IMG/VR virus record: IMGVR_UViG_3300033148_007025
Location: 1 to 38,635 of that record
Direction: 5' to 3' (one strand)
DNA: 38,635 bases
From: a virus
Below are positions 1 through 31,954 of the stretch, in pieces; within the stretch, counting starts at the first letter, position 1, and each line of letters opens with the position of its first letter. A model generated the notes under the pieces. The model was not told the origin of the DNA, searched no databases, and worked only from the letters and a program-made list of their open reading frames with translations. Made by a program: the position numbers and the translations under genes.

Positions 1-114
1 AACAGTAACTTCAGAGATAATTCATATCTATCAGGATGATGACAGTATTGACAAGTATGAACGAAGGGAATTGGTAATAGAAAACGATTTTATTGATAGC
101 GATGAGTTTGCCAG
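1..114. repeat. Terminal direct repeat, left copy (circular overlap)
   Basis: Identical to 38522-38635 over 114 bases. It lies inside a tail gene and the reading frame continues across, so it is most likely an assembly overlap of a circular or circularly permuted genome. Confidence 0.95.
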
Positions 115-4065: not shown

Positions 4066-4295
4066 AAGAACGAGAACCGGGGCAAATTCCTCATCAGGAG
4101 TTTCATATTGAAGAAATTAACGAACAGAGGGTTTTAAAAGAAGAACTCTTTGAAATTCTGTTTGGTTATCCGCTTCGGCTAAGTGAACAAATCGTAGAGA
4201 AAAACTTGTTTAACGACAAACTCAATCAGGAGATAAGAGAGTTCCACCAACGGAGAATAGATTTTATTGATGAAATTTTAGAAAGGAAAGAGTGA
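4062..4295 (+). CDS. Hypothetical helical acidic protein, 77 residues
   Basis: A 77-residue, highly charged protein that is probably all helix, with many Glu, Arg and Gln. No membrane segment, cysteine motif or known family is visible. It is coupled to the membrane micro-ORF upstream (ATGA) and overlaps the phosphoesterase start downstream (GTGA at 4292). It may assist either the lysis genes or the phosphoesterase, but nothing in the sequence decides this. Confidence 0.6.
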   Translation: MKEREPGQIPHQEFHIEEINEQRVLKEELFEILFGYPLRLSEQIVEKNLFNDKLNQEIREFHQRRIDFIDEILERKE

Positions 4296-5323
4296 ATAAA
4301 GAAAGAGAAGATAGAACCCATTGGATACCAGAAGACTGGCTGGACTCAATGGGTCTTAATGAAGAAGATATTGGGGACTCCAGAAGCAACTGGAAGCATT
4401 TTACCCCAGAGTTTGTTGGCACAAAAACCCAAACCTTAAACCTCAACGCCCTTTACTCTGAGATGGGGGCGGCCCAAAGGAGATTTACAGAAGCAAGGAT
4501 AAGCCAACCCGAAGGGCTGGTTAGACTAGACACGGAATACCCTGTGTCTATTTTTTTTATCGGGGATGTTCATTTTGGCTCAATCTATACTGACCACCGC
4601 CGGTTTCTAAAGGAAATCCAACAAATTGCTGATACTCCCAACGCTTATATTGCCTTTATGAGCAACTTAATTGACAATGCTATCCCCTCTCAATATCCCT
4701 CTAATATGTTAGCTAATTCCATTCCGCCCGACAAACAGGTGGTGGCGATGAGAAGAATTGTTCAGGAGTTGGACGAACAGGGCAAGGTTTTGGCGGCGGT
4801 TACTTCTGACTGCCATGAGGGTTGGACTTGGAAGCACGCTGGTCAAGATATCAACGCTTTGATCTTCGGCTTTGAGGGGAGGAGCTTTCCAGTTTTAGAA
4901 AACGGGGGAAGATTGGTAGTCAGAATGGGAAGGGCTAAATATACCATTGGCCTTTACCACAAAATCGGGCCATTCCGATCTAACTTTAACTACACTCATG
5001 GGTTAAAGCAAATGAACCGGCTTAAACAAAACATGGAGTGTGATGTGGTAGCCGGAGCGCATTACCATTGTGGTTCAACCGAGGAAGTCTTTGAAGGGAC
5101 GGGCAAACATTTAAGGTTAAATGTTTATGTCCAATCGGGAACTTATAAAGGAATTGGCCAAATTCACGACCAATGGGTACAGGCAAAATATGGCTCAACC
5201 GGCCAGCCCTCGGCCCAACAGGTGGAGCTATGGCCTAACAAGCGAAAACTATGTGGTCATACTGAGTTTGAGACGGGCTTGCTTGCTCATGAGGCATACC
5301 TAATTAGAGAGATGGTAAAATAA
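4292..5323 (+). CDS. Calcineurin-like metallophosphoesterase
   Basis: A 343-residue protein with the metallophosphoesterase motifs in order: GDVHFGS (about residues 91-97), a NLIDN block (about 124-128), SDCHEGW (about 172-178) in place of the usual GN(H/D), a His in the 220s, and GAHYHCG (about 255-261). This family binds two metal ions and hydrolyses phosphomono- or diesters, including nucleotides and nucleic acids. The Asn of the GNH motif is replaced by Asp, and the second motif has Asn where Asp is usual in GD..D, so activity could differ. The start is GTG 4292, overlapping the previous stop. It is the last gene before the noncoding control region. Confidence 0.8.
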   Translation: MNKEREDRTHWIPEDWLDSMGLNEEDIGDSRSNWKHFTPEFVGTKTQTLNLNALYSEMGAAQRRFTEARISQPEGLVRLDTEYPVSIFFIGDVHFGSIYTDHRRFLKEIQQIADTPNAYIAFMSNLIDNAIPSQYPSNMLANSIPPDKQVVAMRRIVQELDEQGKVLAAVTSDCHEGWTWKHAGQDINALIFGFEGRSFPVLENGGRLVVRMGRAKYTIGLYHKIGPFRSNFNYTHGLKQMNRLKQNMECDVVAGAHYHCGSTEEVFEGTGKHLRLNVYVQSGTYKGIGQIHDQWVQAKYGSTGQPSAQQVELWPNKRKLCGHTEFETGLLAHEAYLIREMVK

Positions 5324-5327
5324 GTTG

Positions 5328-5455
5328 TTGACAATTTGAGTGAGGCGGTGGGCAGACAAAGACTTGATTTTGCAACAAAATCAGTGTCGAACCTAGTGTG
5401 TTTTAGCTTAGGGCACTAGGAGTAAGCCCGTTGCACGCCTCTCTCAAGCTGTTGA
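5328..5455 (+). ncRNA. Structured element 1: long closing stem with two inner hairpins
   Basis: Directly after the phosphoesterase stop. A closing stem pairs 5336-5347 with 5436-5447 (11 of 12 pairs), continued inward by GGGC 5350-5353 with GCCC 5426-5429 and outward by weaker pairs to 5328/5455. Inside are two perfect hairpins: 5366-5372 with 5376-5382 (GATTTTG/CAAAATC, 3-base loop) and 5392-5398 with 5414-5420 (CCTAGTG/CACTAGG). The layout is a three-way junction. No long ORF crosses it. It may act as RNA or as a DNA hairpin near the origin; no own promoter is clear. No known RNA family was recognised. Confidence 0.6.
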
Positions 5456-5550
5456 CAATTTGGGGGAGATAGTTGAGACCTTTATGGTCCATGCACTAAA
5501 CACCGGCAACGGTTAGAAAGTGGAGACAACTATTTCCTCTAAGTTGCCAA
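5452..5550 (+). ncRNA. Structured element 2: 24-position stem with two inner hairpins
   Basis: A second element right after element 1, starting with the same GTTGACAATTTG sequence (5324-region copy at 5327-5338, this copy at 5451-5462). Bases 5456-5475 pair with 5527-5546 in 20 continuous pairs, four of them G-U, and beyond one A-C mismatch three more pairs reach 5452/5550. The use of G-U pairs means pairing is better in RNA than in DNA. Inside are GACC/GGTC (5477-5480 with 5486-5489) and CACT/AGTG (5494-5497 with 5519-5522) enclosing ACCG-GCAA-CGGT, a GNRA tetraloop. Again a three-way junction. Its outer stem competes with element 1 for bases 5452-5455. Confidence 0.65.
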
Positions 5551-5602
5551 AATAAAACCGCCCCAGTAAGAAGCAAACCAGAGCGGATTGTTTGATTATA
5601 AC

Positions 5603-5697
5603 ATTTCCACAAAAGAACGAGAATTTCCACAAGTTATTCACAATTTTGTCCACAAAATTGATATAGTTTGTTTCTAAATCACGCCAACTTATCCACA
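5603..5697 (+). other. DnaA-box cluster, candidate replication origin
   Basis: Five sites in the same orientation match or nearly match the DnaA box TTATNCACA: ATTTCCACA at 5603 and 5623, TTATTCACA at 5634, TTGTCCACA at 5646 and the perfect TTATCCACA at 5689. The surrounding DNA is AT-rich and lies in the only large gene-free region (5324-5935), between structured elements and strong promoters. This fits an origin used by host DnaA, in line with the absence of a phage replicase. Established knowledge covers the box; origin function is inference. Confidence 0.65.
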
Positions 5698-5773
5698 GGA
5701 AACCGCTGTTTTTAGGTAGGGTTATACCTAACTCCCTCTACTACTACTATTCTTTAACAATAAGAGATACGGA

Positions 5774-5813
5774 ATATCCCCCCCCTTCGGGGGGGTTGTT
5801 AAGGGGGGGGATA
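5774..5813 (+). terminator. C8/G7/G8 alternative hairpin, possible terminator
   Basis: A run of eight C (5778-5785) and a TTCG-type loop are followed by seven G (5789-5795) and then, after TTGTTAA, by eight G (5803-5810). The C run can pair with the first G run (tight UUCG-like hairpin) or, with flanking TAT/ATA, with the second. It lies before the early promoters and may end transcription arriving from the left. The U tract is short (TTGTT), so termination is uncertain. Confidence 0.45.
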
Positions 5814-5842
5814 ATTAAAAAAAACGGCGAAAAAATTGGGAC

Positions 5843-5871
5843 TTGACAAGAGATTGAAAATAGTTTAAATT
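5843..5871 (+). promoter_or_regulatory. Sigma70-type promoter P1 of the early region
   Basis: TTGACA at 5843-5848, a 17-base spacer and TAAATT at 5866-5871 (4 of 6 to TATAAT). The -35 lies inside the palindrome CTTGACAAG (5842-5850), shared with other promoters in this genome. It points to the early genes from 5936. Confidence 0.55.
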
Positions 5872-5892
5872 ATGGTAAAGAAAGATAAAAAC

Positions 5893-5921
5893 TTGACAAG
5901 ACTTGACAAATGTATTATAAT
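5893..5921 (+). promoter_or_regulatory. Consensus sigma70 promoter P2 of the early region
   Basis: A perfect -35 TTGACA (5893-5898), an ideal 17-base spacer and a perfect -10 TATAAT (5916-5921). The palindrome CTTGACAAG covers the -35 (5892-5900), followed at once by a second near copy (5902-5910). Transcription would begin near 5928, only about eight bases before the first start codon at 5936, giving an almost leaderless mRNA. This is the strongest promoter seen in the window. Confidence 0.85.
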
Positions 5922-6172: not shown

Positions 6173-6380
6173 GAAAAAACTTTATTGTGTTACGGCTAAT
6201 GTTAAGGGTTGGTTTTTCATCAAAGCCAAGAGTAAAAAAGATGCTGAAGCAAGGTTTTATTGTATGATCACCAACGAGAAGTATCCTTCTCATAAAGACA
6301 AAAGAAGTCTTGGCCTTAAACATTTTACAATCGAAAAAGTAAATAAGAAACCTGTGATTATTGATGAAATCCCATTTTAG
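6156..6380 (+). CDS. Hypothetical basic early protein
   Basis: A 74-residue, lysine-rich protein with predicted beta strands (YCVTANVKGWFFIKAKS pattern near the N-terminus) and a helix containing DAEARFY, reminiscent of small one-domain alpha/beta folds. ATG 6156 is preferred because the strong SD GGAGAGGGGG (6141-6150) precedes it; an upstream ATG at 6135 has none. No known family was recognised. It lies between the small membrane protein and the annealing protein in the early operon. Confidence 0.6.
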   Translation: MKSKDKKKLYCVTANVKGWFFIKAKSKKDAEARFYCMITNEKYPSHKDKRSLGLKHFTIEKVNKKPVIIDEIPF

Positions 6381-6398: not shown

Positions 6399-7091
6399 AT
6401 GCCAGCGGCTAAAAATTTAACAGCGAAAAACATTACCAAAGAGGCAATGGTTAAAAAATCGGAAACAATTGCCCACTCTCCGGTAGTTCTCCCGGCGGCT
6501 TCACCTGAGGAGGCTAAAAAGGCGTGGGCTTCTTATGAAGCTCTAAAGCAGGCCGTCCTTGATGAAAAAAATGACGTTCAGGTCATTCAAGGCAAAAACT
6601 TTCTCAAGAAATCTTATTGGCGAAAGATTGCCACTTTTTTCAATTTGTCGGTTGAGGTAGTTGAGGAACGCCGGGAAGATATTGGCAAAAACGTTGTCTT
6701 TCATTTTGTTTGTAAGGCGATTGCGCCCAACGGCCGGTTTGCGATTGGTTCTGGCTCGGCTGATATTTTTGAGAAGGGATATCGGAACAGCTATCACAAT
6801 GTTAGGGCTACCGCCGAAACTAGGGCTTTTAACCGGGCCGTTTCAAACTTGGTGGGCGGCGGCGAGGTTTCCGCTGAGGAAGTAGAGCAGGTTTCAGAAC
6901 CCAATGCCAGCTCCAGCGATAAGGCTTATGCGTCTGAACCTCAAAAAAGAATGATCTTTGCTTTGAGCAAGGGCAAGGGAATTGCCCCTGAAAAGGCAAA
7001 AGAGGACGCTAAAAAGAAGTTTGGACTCAAGTCATTTAAAGATTTGACGAGAGCGCAAGCAAGAGAGCTTATTGAGGTTTTACAGTCTTGA
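6399..7091 (+). CDS. Probable single-strand DNA annealing protein (Rad52/ERF-like)
   Basis: A 230-residue protein. The core (about residues 58-165) has the pattern GKNFLKKSYWRKIATFF, a beta meander containing CKAIAPNGR, and ATAETRAFNRAVSNLVG followed by GEVSAEEV. This pattern recurs in phage and archaeal-virus recombination proteins that are placed near the Rad52/ERF annealing group. The C-terminus (about 178-230), beginning ASEPQKRMIFALSK, resembles the small helical domain often attached to such proteins. It would coat and anneal single-stranded DNA during replication or repair. It is the only clear DNA-metabolism protein besides HNH. The SD GGGGAGGTG before ATG 6399 is strong. The family assignment is from memory of patterns. 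Confidence 0.65.
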   Translation: MPAAKNLTAKNITKEAMVKKSETIAHSPVVLPAASPEEAKKAWASYEALKQAVLDEKNDVQVIQGKNFLKKSYWRKIATFFNLSVEVVEERREDIGKNVVFHFVCKAIAPNGRFAIGSGSADIFEKGYRNSYHNVRATAETRAFNRAVSNLVGGGEVSAEEVEQVSEPNASSSDKAYASEPQKRMIFALSKGKGIAPEKAKEDAKKKFGLKSFKDLTRAQARELIEVLQS

Positions 7092-8314: not shown

Positions 8315-8488
8315 ATGAAGTTGGAAAAGATAATAGAAAAGGCTGAAAAATATAAGTACGAAGCTTGTCGTGATAAGTTCATGAGGAAACACTTTGGATT
8401 TGGTAATTATGATGTGATAACCCCCTTGATGTTAATCAAGGCCATTAAGAAAGTGGTTGATTTAAGTTTAGGGAGAAAAAATGTATAA
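8315..8488 (+). CDS. Hypothetical 57-residue protein
   Basis: A 57-residue basic helical ORF, coupled to the following dehydrogenase gene (its stop TAA 8486-8488 overlaps the start at 8481). It is mostly charged helix with a conserved-looking aromatic patch (HFGFGNYDV) in the middle. No family was recognised. Confidence 0.5.
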   Translation: MKLEKIIEKAEKYKYEACRDKFMRKHFGFGNYDVITPLMLIKAIKKVVDLSLGRKNV

Positions 8489-9335
8489 AATTGGTATCGT
8501 TGGTTATGGTTATGTTGGTAAAGGAATGCACCGGTTATTCGGTGATTGGGTGCAGGCTATTTATGATCCTTATATAAATTTTTCGGCCAGTTCTCATAGT
8601 TTTGAATTTGACAATATGAGAATAGGGAAGGGATTAAATGACAAGGTGGCTTTTGAAGCTTGCGATTTAACCATTGTTTGTGTTCCCACTAACACCGCCA
8701 AAGATGGCTGGTCTTGTGATGCTTCGATTGTTGAGGAGTCGGTCAAGTGGTTGACTGAGGTTGACCCCAAGCTTTTGATTTTAGTTAAGTCCGCAGTCGT
8801 GCCTTCAAAGATAGAGGCAATCCAAAAAAAATACAAGGCAAGGATTGTCATTTCCCCGGAGTATCTTGGGGAGGGCAATTATTTTGTGCCCTTTTGGAAG
8901 TATCCAGATCCGAAGGAAGTTAAGATGCACTCGTTTCAGATATTTGGCGGTGAGAAAAGGGACACTTCAAAATGTGTTGACATTTTCGTTAAAAAGATGG
9001 GGCCTCACGTTAAATTTTACCAAACCGATTTAAAAACCGCCGCCCTTTGTAAATATATGGAGAACTCTTGGGGGGCGATGAAGGTTACTTTTGCCAACGA
9101 GTGGTATGACATCGCCAAGGCTCACGGCGTTGATTATAACGAGTTAAGGGAACTTTGGACGGCTGATAGCCGGGTGGAAAAGATGCATACGGCGGTATTT
9201 CCAAAATCAAGGGGGTATGGCGGCAAATGTTTCCCCAAGGACGTCCGGGCGATTATTGATGATACCGAGAAAAAAGGATATGAGGCGGAAATAATGAGGG
9301 CAGTTGATAGGGTTAATAGAAAATTTAAACGATAG
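8481..9335 (+). CDS. UDP-glucose/GDP-mannose dehydrogenase-like protein, short form
   Basis: A 284-residue protein of the nucleotide-sugar 6-dehydrogenase family. The N-terminal Rossmann domain has GIVGYGYVGKG (residues 4-14) for NAD binding, CVPTNT (about 72-77) and SPEYLGEG (about 124-131). The central helical domain has KYMENSW and ends in GYGGKCFPKD (about 244-253), the family motif with the catalytic Cys. Full enzymes are about 400-450 residues with a C-terminal UDP-sugar-binding domain, which is missing here; the protein stops soon after the catalytic Cys. It may make a uronic acid precursor for the glycan genes at 12236-20944, or bind nucleotide sugars without full activity. Confidence 0.85.
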   Translation: MYKIGIVGYGYVGKGMHRLFGDWVQAIYDPYINFSASSHSFEFDNMRIGKGLNDKVAFEACDLTIVCVPTNTAKDGWSCDASIVEESVKWLTEVDPKLLILVKSAVVPSKIEAIQKKYKARIVISPEYLGEGNYFVPFWKYPDPKEVKMHSFQIFGGEKRDTSKCVDIFVKKMGPHVKFYQTDLKTAALCKYMENSWGAMKVTFANEWYDIAKAHGVDYNELRELWTADSRVEKMHTAVFPKSRGYGGKCFPKDVRAIIDDTEKKGYEAEIMRAVDRVNRKFKR

Positions 9336-9344
9336 AATGATACG

Positions 9345-9515
9345 ATGAAATACGTTATCTCATCAACTAAATTTACCAGCAAGAAGAAGGTCATTAAGCA
9401 ATTGGAAGAATGGTATGAGGACGAAACCCTTGATGATGGGGCGATGGTTTACGAGGTGAAGAGATCATATCGGCCGGTGGTGGTTAGAAAGATAAAATTG
9501 GAAGAAGTTAAATGA
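9345..9515 (+). CDS. Hypothetical 56-residue protein
   Basis: A 56-residue ORF with a beta-alpha-beta-like layout: a short strand, a charged helix (KKKVIKQLEEWYED), then two strands rich in Val and Arg. It is not recognised. It is coupled to the next gene through ATGA at 9512, supporting real translation, but it has no clear SD. Confidence 0.5.
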   Translation: MKYVISSTKFTSKKKVIKQLEEWYEDETLDDGAMVYEVKRSYRPVVVRKIKLEEVK

Positions 9516-9784
9516 AAATACCCAGAACCATTAAAGAAGATTGGAAAATTCACTTTGGCTGGACAATCGCCTTCACCATGCTCTTTGCCTTTGGGATGCT
9601 TCTTTGGTCACATCAGACAATAAAACGCCTTAGAATTGAGCTGAGGGACTCACAGCAAACATTAAAGGAGTGTCAGCATACCAACGACATCTGGCGGAGT
9701 CAGGTAAAGAGTGGAAGCGTCAAGATTTACAAGGAAACTGAAGATGGTAAAGAAATTATTGAAAGGTGGGAGATGGAAAAATGA
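9512..9784 (+). CDS. Membrane protein with coiled-coil tail (i-spanin-like layout)
   Basis: A 90-residue protein with one membrane segment (about residues 16-32) followed by a charged coiled-coil helix (about 35-60) and a short mixed tail. The N-in, C-out topology with a coiled coil resembles inner-membrane spanins, yet it lies far from the lysis cassette and no partner lipoprotein is visible. A membrane-anchored early protein is the safest description. It overlaps the preceding and following ORFs by ATGA junctions. Confidence 0.6.
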   Translation: MKIPRTIKEDWKIHFGWTIAFTMLFAFGMLLWSHQTIKRLRIELRDSQQTLKECQHTNDIWRSQVKSGSVKIYKETEDGKEIIERWEMEK

Positions 9785-10233
9785 ACCTAGAAGACCAAGT
9801 AATTAGTCTAAAACTAGCCAAGAAGCTAAAGAAGCTCGGAGTAAAGCAGGAGAGTTTATTTTATTGGTGCATTATTGATAATGGGGTTAATGGGGAACAA
9901 GACATTGTTCCTTTAACCGAAAAAGAAATGGATTATTATGACGACGTTCTTGGTAGCGTTGAATATACCGAAATTGCTTCCGCCTTTACTGTTGCTGAGT
10001 TGGGGGAGATGTTGCCTGAAGAGATTATTGTCACCAACAGATTTGATGATAAAGATATTTACTTTCTTGAATTTTGTAAATTTGAAGATAGATGGGATGT
10101 TTCCTATAAAAACGATATACTTAAAAAAGTAACTCAATGTTATGTAAATGGAAGAACCGAAGCCAACGCCAGAGCCCAAATGCTTGTTTGGTTAGTAGAA
10201 AATGGTTATTTAAAGTTAAAGGAGGAAAAATGA
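9781..10233 (+). CDS. Hypothetical acidic protein, 150 residues
   Basis: An acidic 150-residue protein, with an N-terminal helix rich in Lys/Leu and a mixed alpha/beta body; the C-terminus (YVNGRTEANARAQMLVWLVENG) resembles the end of small phage proteins of unknown function found beside early genes. ATG 9781 is preferred over an upstream GTG at 9766 because it makes an ATGA overlap and has a GGGAG SD nearby. No enzyme motif is visible. Confidence 0.6.
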   Translation: MNLEDQVISLKLAKKLKKLGVKQESLFYWCIIDNGVNGEQDIVPLTEKEMDYYDDVLGSVEYTEIASAFTVAELGEMLPEEIIVTNRFDDKDIYFLEFCKFEDRWDVSYKNDILKKVTQCYVNGRTEANARAQMLVWLVENGYLKLKEEK

Positions 10234-10328
10234 ACCTATTCAACTATCTCATCACCACCATTTTAAAAATCCTCAACCAGACAATTTTAAAGGGCAAGAT
10301 TTGGAAGAAAGGATTAGAGCCTAAATGA
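10230..10328 (+). CDS. 32-residue amphipathic peptide
   Basis: A micro-ORF with a perfect GGAGG SD (10221-10225) and ATGA links at both ends. The peptide is hydrophobic in its first half (Leu, Ile, Phe, with Asn and Thr) and basic in its second half, so it may form an amphipathic or membrane-surface helix. No family was recognised. The strong SD supports real translation. Confidence 0.5.
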   Translation: MNLFNYLITTILKILNQTILKGKIWKKGLEPK

Positions 10329-10489
10329 AAGAAATACTAAGAAACGACCATTGTGATGAATGTAAGAAACAAGGCAAGCGGTTGGATATGATTGGGCCTT
10401 CGGTGAGTGCGACTGTTGTTTATTGTAAAGAGGGCATGGCCTTCCATGATGAATGTGAGAAGTTTGAGCCAAAGAGGAGAAGAAAATGA
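10325..10489 (+). CDS. Small cysteine-rich zinc-ribbon-like protein
   Basis: A 54-residue protein with CDEC near residues 10-13, a single Cys near 34 and a Cys near 44 with a nearby His, consistent with one zinc site. It ends in a very basic KRRRK tail suggestive of nucleic-acid binding. It is coupled on both sides by ATGA. It belongs to a run of very small early genes of unknown function. Confidence 0.55.
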   Translation: MKEILRNDHCDECKKQGKRLDMIGPSVSATVVYCKEGMAFHDECEKFEPKRRRK

Positions 10490-10692
10490 CTAAACAACAT
10501 ATCAAAAACAAGATTGCCTACCTTGAACGAATGCTAAGAAATAAACCAGAAGAACAATATTATATGGGTAATAGTGATTGTGCTGAAAGTGCGGTTGAGC
10601 AAGGAAATAGATACAACGAGCAACTGGCAGAAGAAATTGAGAAGGAAATAGCTTTACTAAAAATAGAGTTAAAGAGTCGATTTGATGACTAA
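10486..10692 (+). CDS. Hypothetical coiled-coil protein, 68 residues
   Basis: A 68-residue charged helical protein with two helical segments separated by a Gly/Asn/Ser turn with a Cys. The helices carry Leu/Ile heptads (IAYLERML; IEKEIALLKIELKSRF), so it may dimerise as a coiled coil. No family was recognised. Coupled to its neighbours. Confidence 0.55.
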   Translation: MTKQHIKNKIAYLERMLRNKPEEQYYMGNSDCAESAVEQGNRYNEQLAEEIEKEIALLKIELKSRFDD

Positions 10693-10864
10693 ACCAATGA
10701 AAGGGAAGAAAGAGAAGAAATTTACCATAAAGGAAGTTGAGAAAGCGATGATGGTAGTTTTACCAGCCTTTCCTAAGCGTAAGCTGTTACATAAAATTGA
10801 CTTTGTGAGTCGTGTTTGGCAATTGACCAAAGCAAGATTAGAGGAAGAATTAAATGATCAATAA
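10685..10864 (+). CDS. Hypothetical basic protein, 59 residues
   Basis: A 59-residue lysine-rich protein; TIKEVEKAM at the N-terminus and an amphipathic C-terminal helix are visible. It overlaps the end of the preceding gene by eight bases. ATG 10685 is chosen because the upstream TTG would add only one residue. No family was recognised. Confidence 0.5.
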   Translation: MTKPMKGKKEKKFTIKEVEKAMMVVLPAFPKRKLLHKIDFVSRVWQLTKARLEEELNDQ

Positions 10865-10925
10865 CGAACCAAGGGGGGGGCGAGCCGAGGAATTTGATGA
10901 AAAGTTCTATTCAACAAGAAAATAG
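10854..10925 (+). CDS. Possible 23-residue ORF
   Basis: A tiny ORF overlapping the previous gene by 11 bases through an ATG in its last codons. It has no independent SD. The peptide is hydrophilic and unremarkable. It may be chance; it is listed because the stretch 10865-10938 otherwise holds only a G8 run and a 25-base repeat. Confidence 0.2.
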   Translation: MINNEPRGGRAEEFDEKFYSTRK

Positions 10926-10943
10926 ATAAGCTATTAAAATGAA
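10919..10943 (+). repeat. 25-base direct repeat, copy 1
   Basis: Matches 11221-11245 with two differences. In both copies the unit ends in the start region of a gene (ATG 10939 and ATG 11241). In frame it would encode KKID[KN]LLK then stop. In copy 2 this is the real end of the gene at 10939; here it is an orphan tail with no start. Confidence 0.6.
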
Positions 10944-11244
10944 GAAACTTGGTATAATCAAACGATTTGGAGTGTGTGTTTATTGTGGGCAGACGCATAG
11001 GCCACGGGGAATGATTGAGCCGCTTTATGAGGGATATTTTGGAAGAATTGTAATTGTTAAAGATGATGGCGACTCAAGAAAGGTATGGGTTAGGCTTTTA
11101 AGGCCTCTCCTTGCGCCAGATGGAAAAATCCAAATGTGCAGGGAATTTGTAATTTGCAGAAAACACATAGAGTTTTCTTTGTTAGTAATAATTAAAATGA
11201 AAATTAAGGAGTTAATGAAAAAAATAGATAACCTACTAAAATGA
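10939..11244 (+). CDS. Cysteine-containing hypothetical protein
   Basis: A 101-residue protein. CVYCGQTHRP (residues 13-22), a later CRE and CRKH (near residues 70-80) could form one zinc site. The middle is beta-rich with a basic surface; the C-terminus is a Lys/Ile/Leu helix. A nucleic-acid-binding role is possible, but no family was recognised. It is flanked by the two copies of a 25-base repeat, so it may have been duplicated or exchanged as a unit. Confidence 0.55.
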   Translation: MKKLGIIKRFGVCVYCGQTHRPRGMIEPLYEGYFGRIVIVKDDGDSRKVWVRLLRPLLAPDGKIQMCREFVICRKHIEFSLLVIIKMKIKELMKKIDNLLK

Positions 11245-11245
11245 A
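11221..11245 (+). repeat. 25-base direct repeat, copy 2
   Basis: Second copy of the repeat at 10919-10943. It covers the last codons of the preceding gene and the start of the next. Confidence 0.6.
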
Positions 11246-11402
11246 AGAACGAAGCCTAGAACAAGCCTTCCAGCCAGTTGATATGACTGACAAGGATAAG
11301 AAGAAAACCGTTGGACAAATTATTTTAGAAACGGGCCATGGTTTTTATGACCCGCATGGAAAGAGATATGAGGAACATCGAAAACCGAAGAAGGGTGCTT
11401 GA
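11241..11402 (+). CDS. Hypothetical 53-residue protein
   Basis: A 53-residue charged ORF coupled to the previous gene by ATGA. The C-terminal half (GFYDPHGKRYEEHRKP) is Tyr/His/Arg-rich. It overlaps the HNH gene by 35 bases in another frame. No family was recognised. Confidence 0.45.
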   Translation: MKERSLEQAFQPVDMTDKDKKKTVGQIILETGHGFYDPHGKRYEEHRKPKKGA

Positions 11403-11622
11403 GATTTACGGGAATGAGTGTGCCAACAAGGGCGACCCAAGGATCAAGCATACCTTCAAACGAAGGTTGACCTTTCATCATATTGTCTTTCAAAGCGAGG
11501 GTGGCACAGATGAGAAGTCAAACTTAATCCCGCTTTGCCGGAAGTGCCATGATTTTGTTCATGAACTAGCAGAGGGCCGGGAATATTACCTTGATAGTAG
11601 TGGCAAGAAGCGGAGGAGGTGA
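11368..11622 (+). CDS. HNH endonuclease
   Basis: An 84-residue protein with the HNH signature: HHIVFQSEGG at about residues 36-45 (catalytic His), the central Asn in KSNLIPLC, and CRKCHDFVH at about 57-65, with Cys residues for a structural zinc. It begins with a basic helix (NRRRVLEIYGNEC). HNH enzymes nick or cut DNA; free-standing small ones in phages may assist packaging or act as homing enzymes. It is far from the terminase genes, so the role is open. ATG 11368 with a purine-rich SD is preferred to an upstream ATG at 11347. Confidence 0.85.
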   Translation: MRNIENRRRVLEIYGNECANKGDPRIKHTFKRRLTFHHIVFQSEGGTDEKSNLIPLCRKCHDFVHELAEGREYYLDSSGKKRRR

Positions 11623-11628
11623 TAAAAT

Positions 11629-11907
11629 ATGATGGAAGTAAGCTATGGGGGTGACTCAGACAGTCTAATGGTGGCCGATGGCAGTAATAGTTATAGCTTT
11701 AGCTACGACTACTGGCATAATTGTCCAGAAATAGTGAAGGAGTATCATTACTGGGGTTATCCGACACACACAGCCCTTACTCAATACGAAGACAAATACA
11801 AGAAGGCCTTTAATATTGCCAAACTATTGCTGAAGGAGAAGCTACTTGTTTCAAGGAGGTTGGGGGACTTTATTAAATTAGTAGATAAAATAGCAAAGGA
11901 GCTTTAG
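11629..11907 (+). CDS. Hypothetical acidic protein, 92 residues
   Basis: A 92-residue protein with an aromatic-rich N-terminal half (many Tyr, Ser and Trp, with a FSYDYWHNC stretch) and a basic helical C-terminal half rich in Lys and Leu. A very strong SD (GGAGGAGGTGA at 11612-11622) precedes ATG 11629, suggesting abundant translation. No family was recognised. Confidence 0.6.
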   Translation: MMEVSYGGDSDSLMVADGSNSYSFSYDYWHNCPEIVKEYHYWGYPTHTALTQYEDKYKKAFNIAKLLLKEKLLVSRRLGDFIKLVDKIAKEL

Positions 11908-11941
11908 GGGATTTTATGCGCGTGTTAGGGGGTGATAGAAC

Positions 11942-12112
11942 ATGAAGATATTAGGAATTTACAGCATTATTGTTTTAATTATTACTTTGCTAATGTGTCT
12001 TGAAGATATGCTGTTGGGAATTGATGTGGCTGAAAATCTTTGGGGGATAGCGCTCTTTGTGCCGGTGTTGTTTTATGTCATTAAAACCCTTCAAGATCAA
12101 TCGAAAAACTGA
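11942..12112 (+). CDS. Small two-span membrane protein
   Basis: A 56-residue protein with two hydrophobic segments (about residues 3-22 and 33-49) separated by an acidic loop, and a short polar C-terminus. The SD AGGGGGTGA (11928-11936) supports ATG 11942. The topology would suit a second holin or an inner-membrane host-modifying protein. It lies just before the zinc-ribbon and glycan genes, so it may support glycan export, which is speculation. Confidence 0.6.
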   Translation: MKILGIYSIIVLIITLLMCLEDMLLGIDVAENLWGIALFVPVLFYVIKTLQDQSKN

Positions 12113-12239
12113 GTGGTATCGCTGTGGGGGGTGCGGGAGAATTATTAAAATTAGCGAAGAACATAGTAATGTTGGCTTTGAGGTGAGGGGAGATTTTGAA
12201 AGTTATTGGTGTGAAAAATGTCGGGAGAAACAAAAATGA
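12075..12239 (+). CDS. Small zinc-ribbon protein
   Basis: A 54-residue protein with two CxxC knuckles: CGGCG (about residues 17-21) and CEKC (about 47-50), spaced as in zinc ribbons. Flanking residues are basic. It probably binds nucleic acid or a protein. It overlaps the membrane protein upstream by 38 bases and the deacetylase gene downstream by ATGA (12236). Confidence 0.6.
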   Translation: MSLKPFKINRKTEWYRCGGCGRIIKISEEHSNVGFEVRGDFESYWCEKCREKQK

Positions 12240-12841
12240 AAGTAATTACATCTTGGGACGATGGGGCTAGAGAAGATGAAAAGCTGGTAGAGCTTTTATT
12301 AGCATACGAGCTTCCGGCCATTTTCTTTATCCCAATTGTTAGTTGGGGCTTTCATAACACTCATATTTATAATGGATTTGAGTTTGGCGGCCACACCTAT
12401 TCACACCCAGCTGATTTGAAAGAGTGTGATGATGAGAGGCTTAATACTGAAATTGATCTTGCCAAAAAGAGGCTAGAAGAAAAAGTTGGAAAAAAAACAG
12501 AGTGGTTTTGCTATCCCAGAGGAAGGTACGATCACCGGGTAATGAATGCAGTAAGAAGGGCTGGTTTCAAAAAAGCCAGAACTACCAAAATTGGTTTTCA
12601 TGATAAACTTGATTATGAGGTTGTTAGCCCCTTACAGCTTAGGGGATATCATTGTTTTAGCAGGACAGAATATCGTGGCTTAAGTTGGGACACGGCTATT
12701 TTAGAAATGTTGGCGGTGGCTAAAAAGAGCCATGCGGTTGAGTTTCATATTTGGGGGCACTCGTGGGAAATAGAAAAATACAACGAGTGGCAAAAACTTG
12801 AAAACCTTTTTAAGCAATTAAAGGAGAAAAAATGGGCTTAA
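12236..12841 (+). CDS. Polysaccharide deacetylase (NodB-like)
   Basis: A 201-residue protein with the NodB homology motifs: TSWDDG (residues 5-10; Asp as catalytic base and metal ligand), GGHTYSHP (about 51-58; HxxxH metal site) and FCYPRGRYD (about 91-99). Enzymes of this carbohydrate esterase family 4 remove acetyl groups from N-acetylated sugars in polysaccharides. No signal peptide is visible, so it probably acts in the cytoplasm on a glycan precursor. ATG 12236 is chosen with SD CGGGAGA at 12222-12228 over ATG 12218. It heads the glycan cassette and overlaps the next gene by ten bases. Confidence 0.88.
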   Translation: MKVITSWDDGAREDEKLVELLLAYELPAIFFIPIVSWGFHNTHIYNGFEFGGHTYSHPADLKECDDERLNTEIDLAKKRLEEKVGKKTEWFCYPRGRYDHRVMNAVRRAGFKKARTTKIGFHDKLDYEVVSPLQLRGYHCFSRTEYRGLSWDTAILEMLAVAKKSHAVEFHIWGHSWEIEKYNEWQKLENLFKQLKEKKWA

Positions 12842-13725
12842 CGAGTAAAAACTATTTTAAGCCAAGATTTAAGCTACATATTGCCAACAGCTCAAAGCAG
12901 GCGATTGGGGGTGGTTGGTCATTTATTGCTAACCTTAAAAAGGGGTTAGCTGACAGAGTTGTCTTGACTGACTGGCCATCGGCTGATATCATCTTGATCC
13001 CAAGCGCCTCAATGATTAGCCGGGACGATTTCAATAACTACAAGACAACTGGGGCGAAGGTAGTCTTGCGGATTGACAATGCCCTGAGGAATAGCCGGAA
13101 CAGAAACTCAGGCATGACGAGAATGAAAGAATTTGCCGAGGGGGCTAACGCCTTGGTTTATCAGTCTGAGTGGGCTAGAGGCTATTTAAGGGGTTTTCTC
13201 GGTAAAGATGGTAGGGTAGTACATAATGGTGTTGATCTCAATGTATTCACGGCCTCAGGGCCTCACAAGAGCTTTCAGGGTAACCCAGTCTATCTTTATT
13301 CAAGGTTTAGCCGGGATGAAAGCAAGAGCTGGATTAGGGTTTGGTTTCGTTATCAATATCTCCAAAGGGAACAGCCGGAAGCCAAGCTGGCAATTGTTGG
13401 CCAATTTTCCGAGGAGCTTCGTAATGGCAACTTTGACTTCTTTAATGGTGAAAAATTTGAGTATTACGGAATTGCCCATGATCCTGGGGAAATGGCCCAA
13501 ATTTACCGGGGTTGTAAATACTTATTTGCCTCTTACCACATGGACTGCTTTAGTAATACCTATATTGAGGCGTTATGTTGTGGGTTGAAGTTGTTTGAGC
13601 CTGATATGACCGGCGGAACGCCGGAGATTTTAGCCAAATGGAAAGAGAAGGGCCGGAGTTATTTTGATTGTCGCCGAATGGCTGACGATTATTATAATTA
13701 CTTCAGGGAGGTGATAGAAACATGA
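12832..13725 (+). CDS. Glycosyltransferase, GT-B fold (GT4-like)
   Basis: A 297-residue protein. The N-terminal half binds acceptor and has GGGWSF near residue 24, typical of the glycine-rich start of GT-B enzymes, and VVHNGVDLNVF (about residues 128-138), the hinge region. The C-terminal half has the donor site: YLFASYHMDCFSNTYIEALCCGLKLFEPDMTGGTPEIL (second part about 250-262; Glu-x7-Glu type motif). It would transfer a sugar from a nucleotide-sugar to a growing glycan. It is slightly short for the family. It overlaps the deacetylase and is followed by a micro membrane protein. Confidence 0.85.
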   Translation: MGLTSKNYFKPRFKLHIANSSKQAIGGGWSFIANLKKGLADRVVLTDWPSADIILIPSASMISRDDFNNYKTTGAKVVLRIDNALRNSRNRNSGMTRMKEFAEGANALVYQSEWARGYLRGFLGKDGRVVHNGVDLNVFTASGPHKSFQGNPVYLYSRFSRDESKSWIRVWFRYQYLQREQPEAKLAIVGQFSEELRNGNFDFFNGEKFEYYGIAHDPGEMAQIYRGCKYLFASYHMDCFSNTYIEALCCGLKLFEPDMTGGTPEILAKWKEKGRSYFDCRRMADDYYNYFREVIET

Positions 13726-13850
13726 CCAAGAAAAAACAACTACCATTTTTGGAGTGGGTGGTTTACATAGCGGCCAACTTGGCTACGCTTGGCTTTGCTT
13801 GGGCGCTTAAGGTAATTATTAAGAAGGCAATGATGGAGGCTAATGAATGA
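13722..13850 (+). CDS. 42-residue single-span membrane protein
   Basis: A micro-ORF inside the glycan cassette: basic N-terminus, one membrane span (about residues 11-33) and a short basic C-terminus. The SD GGGAGGTGA (13706-13714) is strong, and ATGA overlaps are present at both ends. It may anchor the glycan enzymes at the membrane, or act as an unrelated small membrane effector; no family was recognised. Confidence 0.6.
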   Translation: MTKKKQLPFLEWVVYIAANLATLGFAWALKVIIKKAMMEANE

Positions 13851-14410
13851 GTTTTTTCAGAACCCAACTTGAAGATTGGTTGAAAACGATTGATGTTAAA
13901 GCTAACCGGGTTTTGGATATCGGTGGCGGGGCTAATCCAGTAAAAGGAAGGACTAGGAGTTGGAAAGTCAAGGAATACATGATACTTGATAATGAGGCCG
14001 AAAGAATGAGAGTAAAGCCTGATCTAACTGGCGATATGAATAAACACACCGCCTATCATAATGTTTGGCCAGCATGGGATGTAATTTTTATGCTAGAAGT
14101 TATGGAATATATCTACATGCCATACATTGCCTTGGTGAACGTTTTTCTTATGTTGGCCCCAAATGGCATTGCCTATATTTCCTTTCCTTTTGTTTACCCG
14201 TGGCATGAACCCAAGGAGATTGATTATTTAAGATATACCAGTCAAGGAGTAAAAAAACTCTTAGAAGTGGCTGGTTTTTCAAAGTGGAATATAAAACCAA
14301 GAATAGATAAGTCTGGCTTACTTGAGCAGTTTTATCATGCTGATGGTATGCACCCGGCAAAGAGAGAAAGACATGATGTTACCGGTTGGCTAGTGGAGGC
14401 TAAAAAATGA
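13847..14410 (+). CDS. SAM-dependent methyltransferase (class I)
   Basis: A 187-residue protein with the SAM motif VLDIGGGANPV (about residues 21-31), an acidic residue after the second strand (LDNE), and a later strand-loop (FMLEVMEYI) followed by YISFPFVYPWHEP and LEVAGF, the common layout of small class I methyltransferases. In a glycan cassette the likely substrate is a sugar hydroxyl or a glycan end. It is coupled to the sulfotransferase through ATGA (14407). Substrate is inference. Confidence 0.8.
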   Translation: MSFFRTQLEDWLKTIDVKANRVLDIGGGANPVKGRTRSWKVKEYMILDNEAERMRVKPDLTGDMNKHTAYHNVWPAWDVIFMLEVMEYIYMPYIALVNVFLMLAPNGIAYISFPFVYPWHEPKEIDYLRYTSQGVKKLLEVAGFSKWNIKPRIDKSGLLEQFYHADGMHPAKRERHDVTGWLVEAKK

Positions 14411-15078
14411 AATTTGTTACCCTTTCAAGCCATCGTTCAGGTAGCAGTCTTTTCCAGAGATTGCTAAACAGTCACCCTGACATTTTAGCAAGACAGGAGG
14501 ATTTAAGAGATCAAGATAGGCACAGCCGTCAGGTAATGTTAGAGAGGCTTGATGGTATTTATGCTAATGATGGGAAACATAAAGCGGTTGGTTTTAAGCT
14601 TCAGTATAGCCACGTTAGGCCGTGGATTTTAGATTACATAAAAAGAAAAGATATTAAAGCAATTCATCTTATCAGGAAAAGTATGCTTGATACTGTTTTT
14701 TGGTATCGTGGCAATTATACCGGTAAGACAATTGGTGGTTTTGGCTCGCCACTTTTAGTTCCGGAGGGTTCAGAAATAGTGGCTAATATTGATAACGTGA
14801 TTGCTTCTTTAAGGTGGATTAGAAAAGAGATTAAGAAATACGAAAAGATAACCGACTTTAGGGTTTATTACGAAAGCTTCACCGCCGGCGGGATAAATGT
14901 TTCAAGGTTTGCTAACAATGATTTGAGGAAGAAATTGCTTAACTTTTTATCTGTTGAAGATAGAGAGTTGACTACCGACCAGAAAAAGGCCCAAAGGAAA
15001 CCATTAAAAGAGTTGGTGGTTAATTACGAAAAGATGCTGTCTGAAATTAAAAGAAGGGGGGTTAAAATTTATTTATGA
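14407..15078 (+). CDS. Sulfotransferase-like protein
   Basis: A 223-residue protein with the 5'-phosphosulfate-binding loop SHRSGSSL at residues 8-15, right after the first strand, and HLIRKSMLDTVFW (about 86-98) in the place of the 3'-phosphate-binding motif. Such enzymes transfer sulfate from PAPS to hydroxyl or amino groups of sugars and other molecules. A basic C-terminal region follows. It sits between two methyltransferases in the glycan cassette, so sulfation of a sugar is the likely reaction. Coupled by ATGA to both neighbours. Confidence 0.8.
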   Translation: MKFVTLSSHRSGSSLFQRLLNSHPDILARQEDLRDQDRHSRQVMLERLDGIYANDGKHKAVGFKLQYSHVRPWILDYIKRKDIKAIHLIRKSMLDTVFWYRGNYTGKTIGGFGSPLLVPEGSEIVANIDNVIASLRWIRKEIKKYEKITDFRVYYESFTAGGINVSRFANNDLRKKLLNFLSVEDRELTTDQKKAQRKPLKELVVNYEKMLSEIKRRGVKIYL

Positions 15079-15536
15079 AATGCGGCAAGTTAAAAATTGA
15101 CTTGGGTTGCGGGCCTAATAAGCACGAGGATTATATCGGCCTTGATATTCATGACTACTCACACCTTTACCCGGAAGGGGAGTTTATCCAATGGGATTTG
15201 GAGAAGGGGGCGTTGCCATTTTGTACTAATTCAGTCAAGTCTATTTGGTGTACCTCGGTTTTGGAGCATATCCATAACTTTATCCCCTTAATGAATGAGT
15301 GCTGGCGGGTTTTAAGACCGGACGGGGATATGTATATTTTAGTACCAAAGGCTGGCGGTGAGGGGAGCTTTAAAGACCCTACCCATTGCCGCTTTTTTTT
15401 GAATAAAACTTTTGATTATTTTACTAAGAGTGTTAGGCAGGAGAACTATGGTATTAAACCGTGGGAGCTTGTTACTAATAGGATGTGGAAGGGCGGACAA
15501 GGAACGATTGAAGTAGTAATGAAACCAGTAAAATGA
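15075..15536 (+). CDS. SAM-dependent methyltransferase (Methyltransf_11-like)
   Basis: A 153-residue protein with IDLGCGPNK (about residues 8-16), GLDIH (about 22-26), a short link and SIWCTSVLEHI (motif after strand 4), then LMNECWRVLRPDGDMYILVP, the usual end of class I methyltransferases of the Methyltransf_11 type. The protein is compact, at the short end for the family. The substrate is probably a sugar or lipid-linked glycan, by context. ATGA links on both sides. Confidence 0.82.
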   Translation: MKCGKLKIDLGCGPNKHEDYIGLDIHDYSHLYPEGEFIQWDLEKGALPFCTNSVKSIWCTSVLEHIHNFIPLMNECWRVLRPDGDMYILVPKAGGEGSFKDPTHCRFFLNKTFDYFTKSVRQENYGIKPWELVTNRMWKGGQGTIEVVMKPVK

Positions 15537-16375
15537 AGATCAGCGTAATCACAACCATAACTAACCCAGAAAAAAGACAGGATAAATGGATTGAAGCATT
15601 AAATTGTTATCGTGATTTGGCTGATGAGGTTGTAATGGTTGATGGGAGTGAAGCTGAACATTATCCAATTTATTTGGATGAGATAAGTAAAGAGACCGTG
15701 AAATTTGTTTATCTTAGATGGCCCTATGAGTGGAATTGGGTTGAATTACCAAGACACCTGAACGCCGGTTTGGATAAATGTACCGGCGATTGGGTGATTA
15801 GGCTAGACATTGACCAATTCATTCACGAAGATGATTTTGAGGTCGCCAGAGCCGCTTTAAGGCGCTGCCCTGATGATTGTGATGTCGTTACCTTTCAAAA
15901 GATGTCAATGACTTATGGTAAGAAGTATTACCAAAAAGGCGGTCAACCGATTGCCTTTAAAAGAAAGAATTATATTAAGTTTGGGCTGAACCTTGATAAA
16001 AAAACGGATTTGTGTTTCCCAGTAAGAGTAACAGAACATCGGGAAATAGATGGATACAAATTACCTATCGGCCATCAGTTAAAAGAATTTAAGGGCGGGG
16101 TTAAGTATTTGAATTACGATTACTTTTTTAAAACTAAAGACTTTACCAAGAAAGAGTTTTTTAGATTTAGCCGTGCTTACCATCGATACTTTAAAAAGTG
16201 GACATTTGGTCGGACCGAAAGAAAAGCCTTTGATGTATTTTTAAAGATGATGAAGGGCCGCCACGACCGATCCCCATACACTTATGAGTTAAAAGACCAC
16301 CCAAAGCATATTCGGGAAGCAGTTAGGAATTTAACAAAAGACCAGTTTGGATTAAATGCTTGGGGGCTTTTATGA
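15533..16375 (+). CDS. Glycosyltransferase, GT-A fold (GT2-like)
   Basis: A 280-residue protein starting MKISVITTITNP, the typical first strand of GT-A enzymes, with VVMVDGSEAEHY (about residues 34-45) and a DxD-type motif in RLDIDQF (about 90-96) that would bind the metal and nucleotide-sugar. The C-terminal part is basic and aromatic (YFFKTKDF...FFRFSRAYHRYF), perhaps binding membrane or acceptor. It likely transfers a sugar in the glycan pathway. The ORF overlaps its neighbour by ATGA at 16372. Confidence 0.8.
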   Translation: MKISVITTITNPEKRQDKWIEALNCYRDLADEVVMVDGSEAEHYPIYLDEISKETVKFVYLRWPYEWNWVELPRHLNAGLDKCTGDWVIRLDIDQFIHEDDFEVARAALRRCPDDCDVVTFQKMSMTYGKKYYQKGGQPIAFKRKNYIKFGLNLDKKTDLCFPVRVTEHREIDGYKLPIGHQLKEFKGGVKYLNYDYFFKTKDFTKKEFFRFSRAYHRYFKKWTFGRTERKAFDVFLKMMKGRHDRSPYTYELKDHPKHIREAVRNLTKDQFGLNAWGLL

Positions 16376-17391
16376 AAATATATAATCTTTTTAAGAAAAA
16401 GGGGAAGCATTGTTTTCTTTATCCATTACCGGATAAAAGATTGGCTTTAAAGATTTTTAATGCCTATCCGCTTAATAACTGGGAAAACCTGTCCGGCTTC
16501 CGGTGGGGTGATCCGCCTGCAGGTGATAACCCTGATATGAGTGTTCCTTTAATTGACGCCACTAAAATTCAAAATATCGCTTGGATGCATGGTTTAGCAC
16601 CGCGGGTTTATGGGATTGTTAAGGTGAGGATTGGCAACCAGAAGTATTGGGCGCAAGAGGTAGAGTTGGTTGAAGGTGAATTTGCCGAGAATAAACACGA
16701 GGTGTTTTACGCTACCTATAAAAAGGTTAAAGATTTGGGGTTGGTTTATGGATTTGAAAGTGAAAAAGACGATGTTTCGGCTAAGGATGTTATTGGTGGA
16801 AAATTAGTTGACTTTAACACTTTTCATTTTACTAAAGACCATCTTGGGAAAGTCAAGAAGGCCTATATTGAAAAAGCTCGCTATGGCAAAATTTATTATC
16901 ATAATGTGCCGGAATGGGGATTAGTTAACTCACCGAGGAAAAACAAAGATAGAGTTAAATATATGAAACTCGATGAAATTGACTTTAAGGGAAAATCCGT
17001 TTTGGATTTGGGGTGTGCTGGCGGCTACTTCTGCCGGTATGTAAAAGATAGAGGGGCGGGTTATGTGCGGGGGGTGGATTTTGAAGATCCAGTTTTTGCC
17101 GCCTTCTTGGTTTCTAATGAGTTAATGTATTGGGATATTGATTTTTACAACAAAGACATTTGTAATTACCAGCCGACAATGAAATTTGACATTGTTTTCT
17201 TTTTATCAATGAATTATCACATTGGCATTCCTAGTTGGTTGGCTGGGGTGACGAAAAAGATTTGTATTTTTGAAGATAACTCAAAAGAGAGGAACGCAAA
17301 GAAAACATTGACAAAAATGTTTAAAGAAGTTAAATTAGTGGGTAAGGCAAGGGATCACGGCATGAAACCGATCTACCATTGCCGGCACTAG
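16372..17391 (+). CDS. Two-domain protein: kinase-like N-terminus, methyltransferase C-terminus
   Basis: A 339-residue fusion. Residues about 190-339 form a class I methyltransferase with SVLDLGCAGGYF (about 207-218), GVDFEDP (about 232-238) and DIVFFLSMNYH (about 278-288). The N-terminal 185 residues recall a small kinase/phosphotransferase fold: a strand with LALKIF, a helix region with NIAWMHGLAP, a hinge with WAQEVELVEGE and a late VDFNTFHF, similar to the DFG position. The kinase link is tentative. ATG 16372 overlaps the previous stop; an upstream TTG was not used. Confidence 0.7.
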   Translation: MKIYNLFKKKGKHCFLYPLPDKRLALKIFNAYPLNNWENLSGFRWGDPPAGDNPDMSVPLIDATKIQNIAWMHGLAPRVYGIVKVRIGNQKYWAQEVELVEGEFAENKHEVFYATYKKVKDLGLVYGFESEKDDVSAKDVIGGKLVDFNTFHFTKDHLGKVKKAYIEKARYGKIYYHNVPEWGLVNSPRKNKDRVKYMKLDEIDFKGKSVLDLGCAGGYFCRYVKDRGAGYVRGVDFEDPVFAAFLVSNELMYWDIDFYNKDICNYQPTMKFDIVFFLSMNYHIGIPSWLAGVTKKICIFEDNSKERNAKKTLTKMFKEVKLVGKARDHGMKPIYHCRH

Positions 17392-17400
17392 GCTACCCAA

Positions 17401-18969
17401 ATGAAAATCTTAATTCTAACCGATAAAAACGGTTCTGCCATTGATATTCTCAGCCAGCATATTAAGCGGCATAACCCCCACCTTGATATTAGTATTCAAT
17501 CTTTTCACCCCAAACGCCCTGATATTGATCAGCTTGAAAAAGCTCCAAAGCTTTGGGACGAGGCGGATTTGGTTCATGTTGCTTATTGGAAGTCTGGTGA
17601 GAAGTTTAAAGAGCTTTACCCCGATAAGTTTAAAAGCAAAAGAAAAATTCTCTGTCACTATAATCCCTATGATGTTGATAAGAAGAACTGGCTTAAGGAC
17701 TATAAAAAGGTAGTGGTTGGCAATGAAACAATCCAAGCCAAAATCCCTTACGCCAAGCTAATCCCTTATTGTATTGACCTTGAGTATTGGGAGTATAACC
17801 CAAAATATACTGAAGGAAAGGTGGTCAATATGGTGGTGGCAAGGATTGAAAGCAAAAAGGGAGTTGTGCCGGTGGCGAAAGTTTGTAAAGAGCTGGGTTA
17901 TGGGTTTGTTTTGGTTGGCCGGATTTCAAAGATGGATTATTTTCGGCAAATTATGGAGGCCAACCCAGACACTATCTTTAAAGAAAACATTGGCGTTGAC
18001 GAGCTTAAAGAAACTTATTACCAATCAGCGATCCACGTTTGTAATTCGGTTGATAATTTCGAAAGCGGTACATTGCCAATTCTGGAAGCGATGGCCTGCG
18101 GCGTACCGGTGTTAACCAGAGTCGTGGGCCACGTTCCGGAATTGTTCAATGGTGACAATATGATGGTTAGGGAAGAAGAGCCGGAAAATGAAGAAGAGCT
18201 TAAGGCTAAACTTCAGGAGCTAATGGAAAATAGGCCGTTGAGAGAAAAGCTACGGGATCGGGCTTGGCAGACAGTTAAGAATAGGCCAGCCTGGAAATAC
18301 GCAAGGCAATTTTCCTCGCTCTATTATGATATTAGAAGTAAAAAACCGTTGGTATCAATAATTACCCCGACATTTGACAAGCCTGACGTTTTAATAAAAA
18401 ACCTTGCCAAGTCAGCCACTCAGGATTACCCAAATTATGAGATCGTTGTTGTTGACTCTGGCAACTTGAGTAGTAAGCCAGTTGTTGACGCATTTAGAAA
18501 GAGGATTGATGTGCCGATAAAATACATTAGATTTGAAAACAAGGGCGAATATACTTTGGCCAAGGCGAGGAATTTGGCGGCGGTTGAGGCACAGGGTAAA
18601 TACTTGGTTTTTGATGATGAGCGAATGGGAATGGAGCCCAATGCGGTTTCTGTTTTTGTGGCCGCCATGGAGGATAAAGAAAAAACTTGGCTGTTTGGGA
18701 TTAAAGATGATTTTGAAAAAGGTTTTGTTGAAAATTTTAGTTGTGTTAAAAGGGAGGAATTTATGTTGTATGGTATGTTTAACGAGAGGATTGATGCTTA
18801 TGGCGGTATGACCCAAGAGGTTAGGACGAGGTTTGAAAAGAATGGTTTTGTTTTTGAAATGATTAACGAGGCAAGAGCCTATCGTGTTGCTGGTTCAAAA
18901 AACAAATGGAAAAAGCGCAAGGAAATAATTAGGAGTAAATACAATATATGGAAGATGTACTATGGCTAA
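17401..18969 (+). CDS. Bifunctional glycosyltransferase: GT4-like plus GT2-like domains
   Basis: A 522-residue fusion. Residues 1-300 form a GT-B enzyme with NMVVARIESKKGVVPVAKV (donor-domain start, about 141-159) and EAMACGVPVL (about 229-238), the GT4 donor motif. Residues 315-522 form a GT-A domain with PLVSIITPTFDKP (about 315-327), VVVDSG and VFDDERM (about 403-409) as the DxD-like site. Two sugar transfers in one chain may build a disaccharide repeat in sequence. The gene is separated from the upstream ORF by only nine bases and overlaps a micro-ORF at its end. Confidence 0.82.
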   Translation: MKILILTDKNGSAIDILSQHIKRHNPHLDISIQSFHPKRPDIDQLEKAPKLWDEADLVHVAYWKSGEKFKELYPDKFKSKRKILCHYNPYDVDKKNWLKDYKKVVVGNETIQAKIPYAKLIPYCIDLEYWEYNPKYTEGKVVNMVVARIESKKGVVPVAKVCKELGYGFVLVGRISKMDYFRQIMEANPDTIFKENIGVDELKETYYQSAIHVCNSVDNFESGTLPILEAMACGVPVLTRVVGHVPELFNGDNMMVREEEPENEEELKAKLQELMENRPLREKLRDRAWQTVKNRPAWKYARQFSSLYYDIRSKKPLVSIITPTFDKPDVLIKNLAKSATQDYPNYEIVVVDSGNLSSKPVVDAFRKRIDVPIKYIRFENKGEYTLAKARNLAAVEAQGKYLVFDDERMGMEPNAVSVFVAAMEDKEKTWLFGIKDDFEKGFVENFSCVKREEFMLYGMFNERIDAYGGMTQEVRTRFEKNGFVFEMINEARAYRVAGSKNKWKKRKEIIRSKYNIWKMYYG

Positions 18970-19066
18970 GAAAAAGTGTAAATGTCTAAGGATAGTAAGT
19001 CGATCTGCTCATCGCAGATTGCACGCCGTAAAGCGAGGCGTTGATGGGAGGTGGTGCCAGCCATGA
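18962..19066 (+). CDS. 34-residue basic cysteine-containing peptide
   Basis: A micro-ORF overlapping the end of the bifunctional GT gene. It encodes a highly basic peptide with CKC near the N-terminus and one Cys near the end, so it might bind zinc or RNA. Its TGA overlaps the ATG at 19063. It could instead act only to carry ribosomes to the next start. Confidence 0.35.
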   Translation: MAKKKCKCLRIVSRSAHRRLHAVKRGVDGRWCQP

Positions 19067-19104
19067 GAAAGTTTAAGGTCATTACTTATCCGTGGCATAC
19101 TTGA
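19063..19104 (+). pseudogene. Out-of-frame N-terminus of the next glycosyltransferase
   Basis: ATG 19063 has an excellent SD (GGGAGGTGG, 19046-19054) and encodes 13 residues ending KVITYPWHT before TGA 19102. That sequence looks like the first strand of a GT-B enzyme, and the main ORF continues in the -1 frame from about 19077 on. Either a one-base indel has split the gene, or there is a sequencing error, or ribosomes shift here. No standard slippery heptamer is present. Confidence 0.55.
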
Positions 19105-29207: not shown

Positions 29208-29243
29208 GAGCGCCTTGAGCGCCATAAAGAGGCTCAAATAGAA

Positions 29244-29296: not shown

Positions 29297-29304
29297 GTTG
29301 CTTG

Positions 29305-29350: not shown

Positions 29351-29360
29351 GAGGCAATAA

Positions 29361-31932: not shown

Positions 31933-31954
31933 AGCTGAAACGATAGGCTTTAGT

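Follow-up and report, generated by a model that had tools for sequence, protein, structure and literature searches.

Two adjoining branched RNA structures directly past a phage stop codon, a candidate element for message protection or processing

In the viral genome recorded as IMGVR_UViG_3300033148_007025 in IMG/VR (positions 1 to 38,635, the whole stretch that was analyzed and that we call the window), the + strand at 5324-5550 folds into two adjoining branched rods, E1 (5324-5459) and E2 (about 5456-5546), immediately behind a phosphoesterase gene. They probably represent a previously undescribed intercistronic or 3'-UTR structured RNA, which would act as a barrier to exonucleases or as a processing site. 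This reading is based on the stability and strand of the fold, on the position of the rods in the transcription unit, and on a likely relative of E1 in a second viral contig.

Results and Discussion

Locus and architecture of the two rods

The ends of the record are identical (window 1-114 = 38522-38635), and this 114-nt terminal direct repeat indicates a complete genome of ~38.5 kb that is circular or circularly permuted. The major genes lie on the + strand and include terminase, portal, head, tail, amidase, and phosphoesterase genes, together with many sugar and methyl transferases. A big block of sugar-nucleotide, glycosyltransferase, deacetylase, and methyltransferase genes at 8481-20944 likely serves surface modification. 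Among genome contigs, neither the phosphoesterase nor the UDP-glucose dehydrogenase had a relative, and the protein at 6399-7091 had none among viral contigs. A perfect 13-bp inverted repeat of G/C runs (TATCCCCCCCCTT..AAGGGGGGGGATA, 5775-5813) lies between the DnaA boxes and the early promoters. The features of the locus are collected in Table 1.

Table 1. Features of the E1/E2 locus in the window
Feature	Coordinates	Strand	Remarks
Phosphoesterase (DNA repair exonuclease-like, phrog_7339)	4292..5323	+	Stop codon 5321-5323 abuts E1
Direct repeat, copy 1 (E1 5' arm)	5322..5344	+	Directly 3' of stop codon 5321-5323
E1	5324..5459	+	Rod; closing stem of 10+6+6 pairs; RNA fold z -7.0; pair probabilities near 1; likely relative in L002
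E1 5' core, GCGGTGGGCAGAC	5345..5357	+	Common to L002 (GGCGGTGGG, A, AC)
E1 inner hairpin 1	5361..5388	+	7-pair stem 5366-5372/5376-5382
E1 inner hairpin 2	5392..5420	+	7-pair stem 5392-5398/5414-5420
E1 3' core, GTAAGCCCGTTGCACGCCTC	5422..5441	+	Common to L002 (GTAGCCCGATTGCCCGCCTC)
Direct repeat, copy 2 (E1 3' arm and E2 5' arm)	5446..5468	+	
E2	5456..5546	+	A stem of up to 20 continuous pairs encloses two inner hairpins, of which one has a GCAA tetraloop; z -4.75; no relative found
DnaA-box-like cluster, 2 perfect (5634, 5689) and 3 near	5603..5697	+	Possible origin; context
Sigma-70-type promoter of the next operon, perfect TTGACA-17-TATAAT	5893..5921	+	Context

A first-pass annotation of this DNA had described two tandem structured elements with a shared start sequence, and both parts of that description hold. 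The shared start is a 23-nt repeat, AAGTTGTTGACAATTTGAGTGAG at 5322 and AAGCTGTTGACAATTTGGGGGAG at 5446, with 87% identity and a spacing of 124, and the outer stem of E1 begins with the first nucleotide after the stop codon. The sequence also contains the 20 continuous pairs reported for E2 (5456-5475 with 5527-5546, four of them G-U), its GNRA-loop hairpin (GCAA at 5506-5509), and the two perfect 7-pair hairpins reported for E1. The closing stem of E1, which had been given as 11/12 pairs, is longer (Table 1), with 1x1 A.C and T.T mismatches. Further parts of E1 are a GU/GUUGCA internal loop, GGGC/GCCC and AC/GU pairs, and the two inner hairpins. No open reading frame of at least 60 amino acids covers the element, in agreement with the lack of coding potential noted earlier.

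The outer stems had also been thought to compete for 5452-5455 and thus to form alternative folds. An overlap does exist, though at 5456-5459, and the support for alternative folds is mild, since the stems share these 4 nt only. The competition is mild, and the preferred fold retains both rods, with E1 extending to 5459 and E2 starting at 5460.

Folded as RNA, 5320-5560 of the + strand reached -94.2 kcal/mol (z -7.4), and none of 200 shuffled sequences folded as well; the - strand gave a z of -3.5. With DNA parameters, the z-scores were -4.9 (+) and -3.3 (-). The single rods reached -61 (E1) and -39 kcal/mol (E2), and the pair probabilities of most helices were 0.9-1.0 even when the element was folded in 450-800 nt of context. 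G-U pairs account for 11 of the 81 pairs, whereas A.C occurs once in the 1x1 mismatches. By energy, RNA is favoured over DNA, and the + strand over the - strand. Genome-wide, 5451-5550 ranks second by fold among 100-nt segments, after the region 29201-29400 before the head gene. The RNA role that had been proposed from the G-U pairs is supported by the + strand fold, by the number of these pairs, and by the compensatory changes in the likely relative described below.

A likely relative of E1

A covariance model of E1 alone was searched over 266 kb of relatives. It matched contig L002 at 9885-9997 (+); the score was 19.6 bits and E ~0.08 for this search space, which is borderline on score alone. 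The same contig holds the one close relative of the phosphoesterase found in viral contigs (63%). On the 5' side, both copies carry GGCGGTGGG together with A and AC, and on the 3' side GTA(A)GCCCG(A)TTGC[A/C]CGCCTC. They also have in common an AC/GU pair at the junction and, at the same place, a 1x1 mismatch whose 3' base is C. Beyond this core, 19 of the 19 pairs of the outer helix are kept in L002, with five two-sided and three one-sided changes, a count that omits two unpaired T of E1 and leans towards pairing because the match came from a structure model. When the partners were slid as a control, 42-50% were paired. The inner hairpins differ between the copies. Judging from these two sequences, E1 and the L002 copy are very probably homologous.

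The L002 copy sits in a 126-nt intergenic gap, 3 nt 3' of the stop codon of a small ORF (9882-9884), with its stem starting at 9888. It ends ~14 nt 5' of the ribosome site of the next gene, i.e. within an operon. Both copies start 0-3 nt past a stop codon, and the genes beside the L002 copy are unlike those beside E1.

Searches elsewhere returned no further members. Rfam 15, searched with the window and L002, gave no match at the gathering score and, with E relaxed to 10, nothing above chance level, consistent with the earlier remark that no known family could be recognised. No match was found by blastn against phages and plasmids, and a literature search for comparable phage RNAs produced nothing matching. 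Among the capsid-gene relatives, the E1 and E2 models hit nothing besides L002; 29 such relatives, many of them fragments, gave no match. The element falls outside the coverage of L003, whose sequence matches much of the genome at 95-98% identity. The model search yielded no relative of E2, and an E2 match in G006 lies in an open frame and was set aside as chance.

Several sequence patterns were tried and rejected. The DNA pattern TTGACAATTTGNGNGAG had 43 matches in viral contigs, which we judged to be chance: the best of them (L028, L033, L034, and L046; 31 nt, 87%) overlap long open frames, and the others lack either a correctly spaced second copy or a similar fold. A paired-repeat pattern matched twice, both times without the fold. 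The core pattern GCGGTGGG..CCCG.TTGC.CGC occurred in 23 stretches besides L002, mostly G+C-rich and without the E1 helix; a loosened form of it, picked post hoc, matched five times in 145 Mb of random sequence.

Protection or processing of the message 3' end

We propose that E1 and E2 are transcribed in sense at the tail of an mRNA that ends with the phosphoesterase gene. The transcript would fold into two very stable branched rods directly past the stop codon, and these would define where the message ends and shield that 3' end, as a barrier to 3'-5' exonucleases, as a site of double-strand cleavage, or as both. In the window and in L002 alike, a stop codon leads straight into a stable structure on the sense strand. 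The sequence after E2 is GCCAAAATAAAACC, and no intrinsic terminator was matched on the + strand at 5324-5890. Since no + strand terminator was matched between E2 and the next promoter, the rods most likely both set and protect the 3' end themselves. Directly upstream of E1, no sigma-70 promoter scored at least 9/12. We consider this explanation as a whole to be tentative, somewhat short of an even chance.

The following points weigh against it. Simple hairpins would suffice for protection, and the branched rods and the conserved core (GGCGGUGGG ... GCCCG(A)UUGC) suggest a more specific role. The gene ahead of the L002 copy is also another one, which means that the element is not bound to the message that it would protect.

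Several known systems resemble E1 and E2 in part. REP elements (malE-malF) and the hairpins of the puf operon likewise place stable RNA structure directly past a stop codon, either inside an operon or where it ends. Each of those is one simple hairpin, whereas E1 and E2 form a pair of large branched rods whose core is conserved in sequence, and protection by them would be an analogy. RNase III sites of the T7 type share the long, near-continuous helices between genes, but E1 and E2 have an inner multibranch junction and the conserved core, and their cleavage is putative.

Alternative explanations

The main alternative is that E1, with or without E2, is a trans-acting phage non-coding RNA, excised from the mRNA or transcribed from a promoter that escaped recognition. 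It might serve, for instance, as a decoy for a protein of the host or of a defence system. A conserved core, variable inner hairpins, and unrelated neighbouring genes in the window and L002 resemble the behaviour of an independent RNA gene, and the fold is very defined. Against this stand the lack of an upstream promoter of at least 9/12 and of a terminator behind, and the absence from the 29 capsid-gene relatives and from Rfam; we regard a trans-acting RNA as possible but doubtful. We regard as rather unlikely the fuller version of this idea, in which E1 is a new phage RNA family whose closing helix and core are conserved and whose inner hairpins can be exchanged, and which is cut out of late mRNA to act in trans on a host or defence component.

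An origin hairpin had been suggested from the DnaA boxes downstream, and a transcript or DNA hairpin beside them might control or prime replication, like ColE1-type RNA II or single-strand initiation hairpins. The boxes begin 57 nt 3' of E2 on the same strand, and no replication gene was recognised among the searched proteins of the circular genome. However, E1's sole relative, L002, has no perfect DnaA box (TTATNCACA) in its 15.8-kb record, which is a fragment and one negative case for E1 only; E1 as such is thus probably not part of an origin. The fold is also better as RNA than as DNA, and we consider an origin element improbable. GC skew is monotone and uninformative on the origin.

Strong terminators lie directly 5' of structural genes in the lineage (window 29241-29298; L052 2150-2176), so some antitermination is likely there. 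E1 and E2 could then be an RNA of the put or EAR type, with which a modified RNA polymerase reads through later terminators. HK022 put, EAR, and other antiterminator RNAs are also phage or operon RNAs with several stem-loops, but the position of E1 and E2 relative to promoter and terminators is unfitting. A long distance separates them from those terminators, a strong new promoter (5893) intervenes, and they have no Rfam match. The put RNAs of HK022 are two simple stem-loops near a promoter. An antiterminator is therefore quite improbable.

Three other identities were rejected. Integron attC sites are imperfect palindromes directly past a stop codon as well, but E1 and E2 have two inner hairpins and favour the + strand via G-U pairs, GTTGACA breaks the terminal GTTRRRY / RYYYAAC (C at the third R), and no integrase family appears among the protein matches. 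A G+C-rich stem with a T run after it, as in an intrinsic terminator, is lacking, and a promoter inside the GTTGACA repeats would have no -10 box at the right distance. Finally, a chance or decayed DNA inverted repeat without RNA function, which might be argued from the lack of close relatives covering the element and the single occurrence of E2, is highly improbable. The shuffling result speaks against it, as do the G-U pairs, the defined ensemble, and, in L002, the compensatory changes.

Structured stop codons and terminators in the lineage

The capsid gene had 31 matching loci. A segment of 110 nt at the stop of the capsid gene had a mean z of -2.8 across 17 relatives together with the window; 135 other stops from these loci gave -0.18 (p = 2.6e-7, which is optimistic because several loci are near-duplicates). 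Structure directly past stop codons appears to be a regular tool of the lineage, in favour of the protection or processing reading, and E1/E2 is the largest stop-codon-trailing structure in the window. Strong hairpins are found right at the capsid-gene stop in the window (31930-32014) and in L056, L063, L064, L066, L073, L076, and L079, with no conservation of sequence.

The strongest fold of the genome (z -7.9 to -11) is at 29158-29361 and is unchanged in L003. It comprises a promoter-like TTGACA-17-TAATGT, a ~100-nt leader, and a 25-bp hairpin with U7 (29241-29298), and the ribosome site belonging to the head gene at 29361 is contained in a second long hairpin (29295-29359). This arrangement suggests promoter-proximal termination with antitermination. 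Downstream of a promoter-like motif, TTGACAA-TAGGTTATAATG with 7-nt spacing (two copies; L052 2101-2180, L002 7025-7157), come a short leader and then a terminator; what lies beyond is a structural gene, the portal gene in L052, or else non-coding sequence. L002 further carries intergenic arrays of GGCNAGGC-like pentamer repeats at ~6270-6340 and ~6910-6980.

If the rods do protect or process the message end, a little-known phage lineage would carry an undescribed family of structured RNA, and strong RNA structure past stop codons, most of all that of the capsid gene, would be a general means of message tuning.
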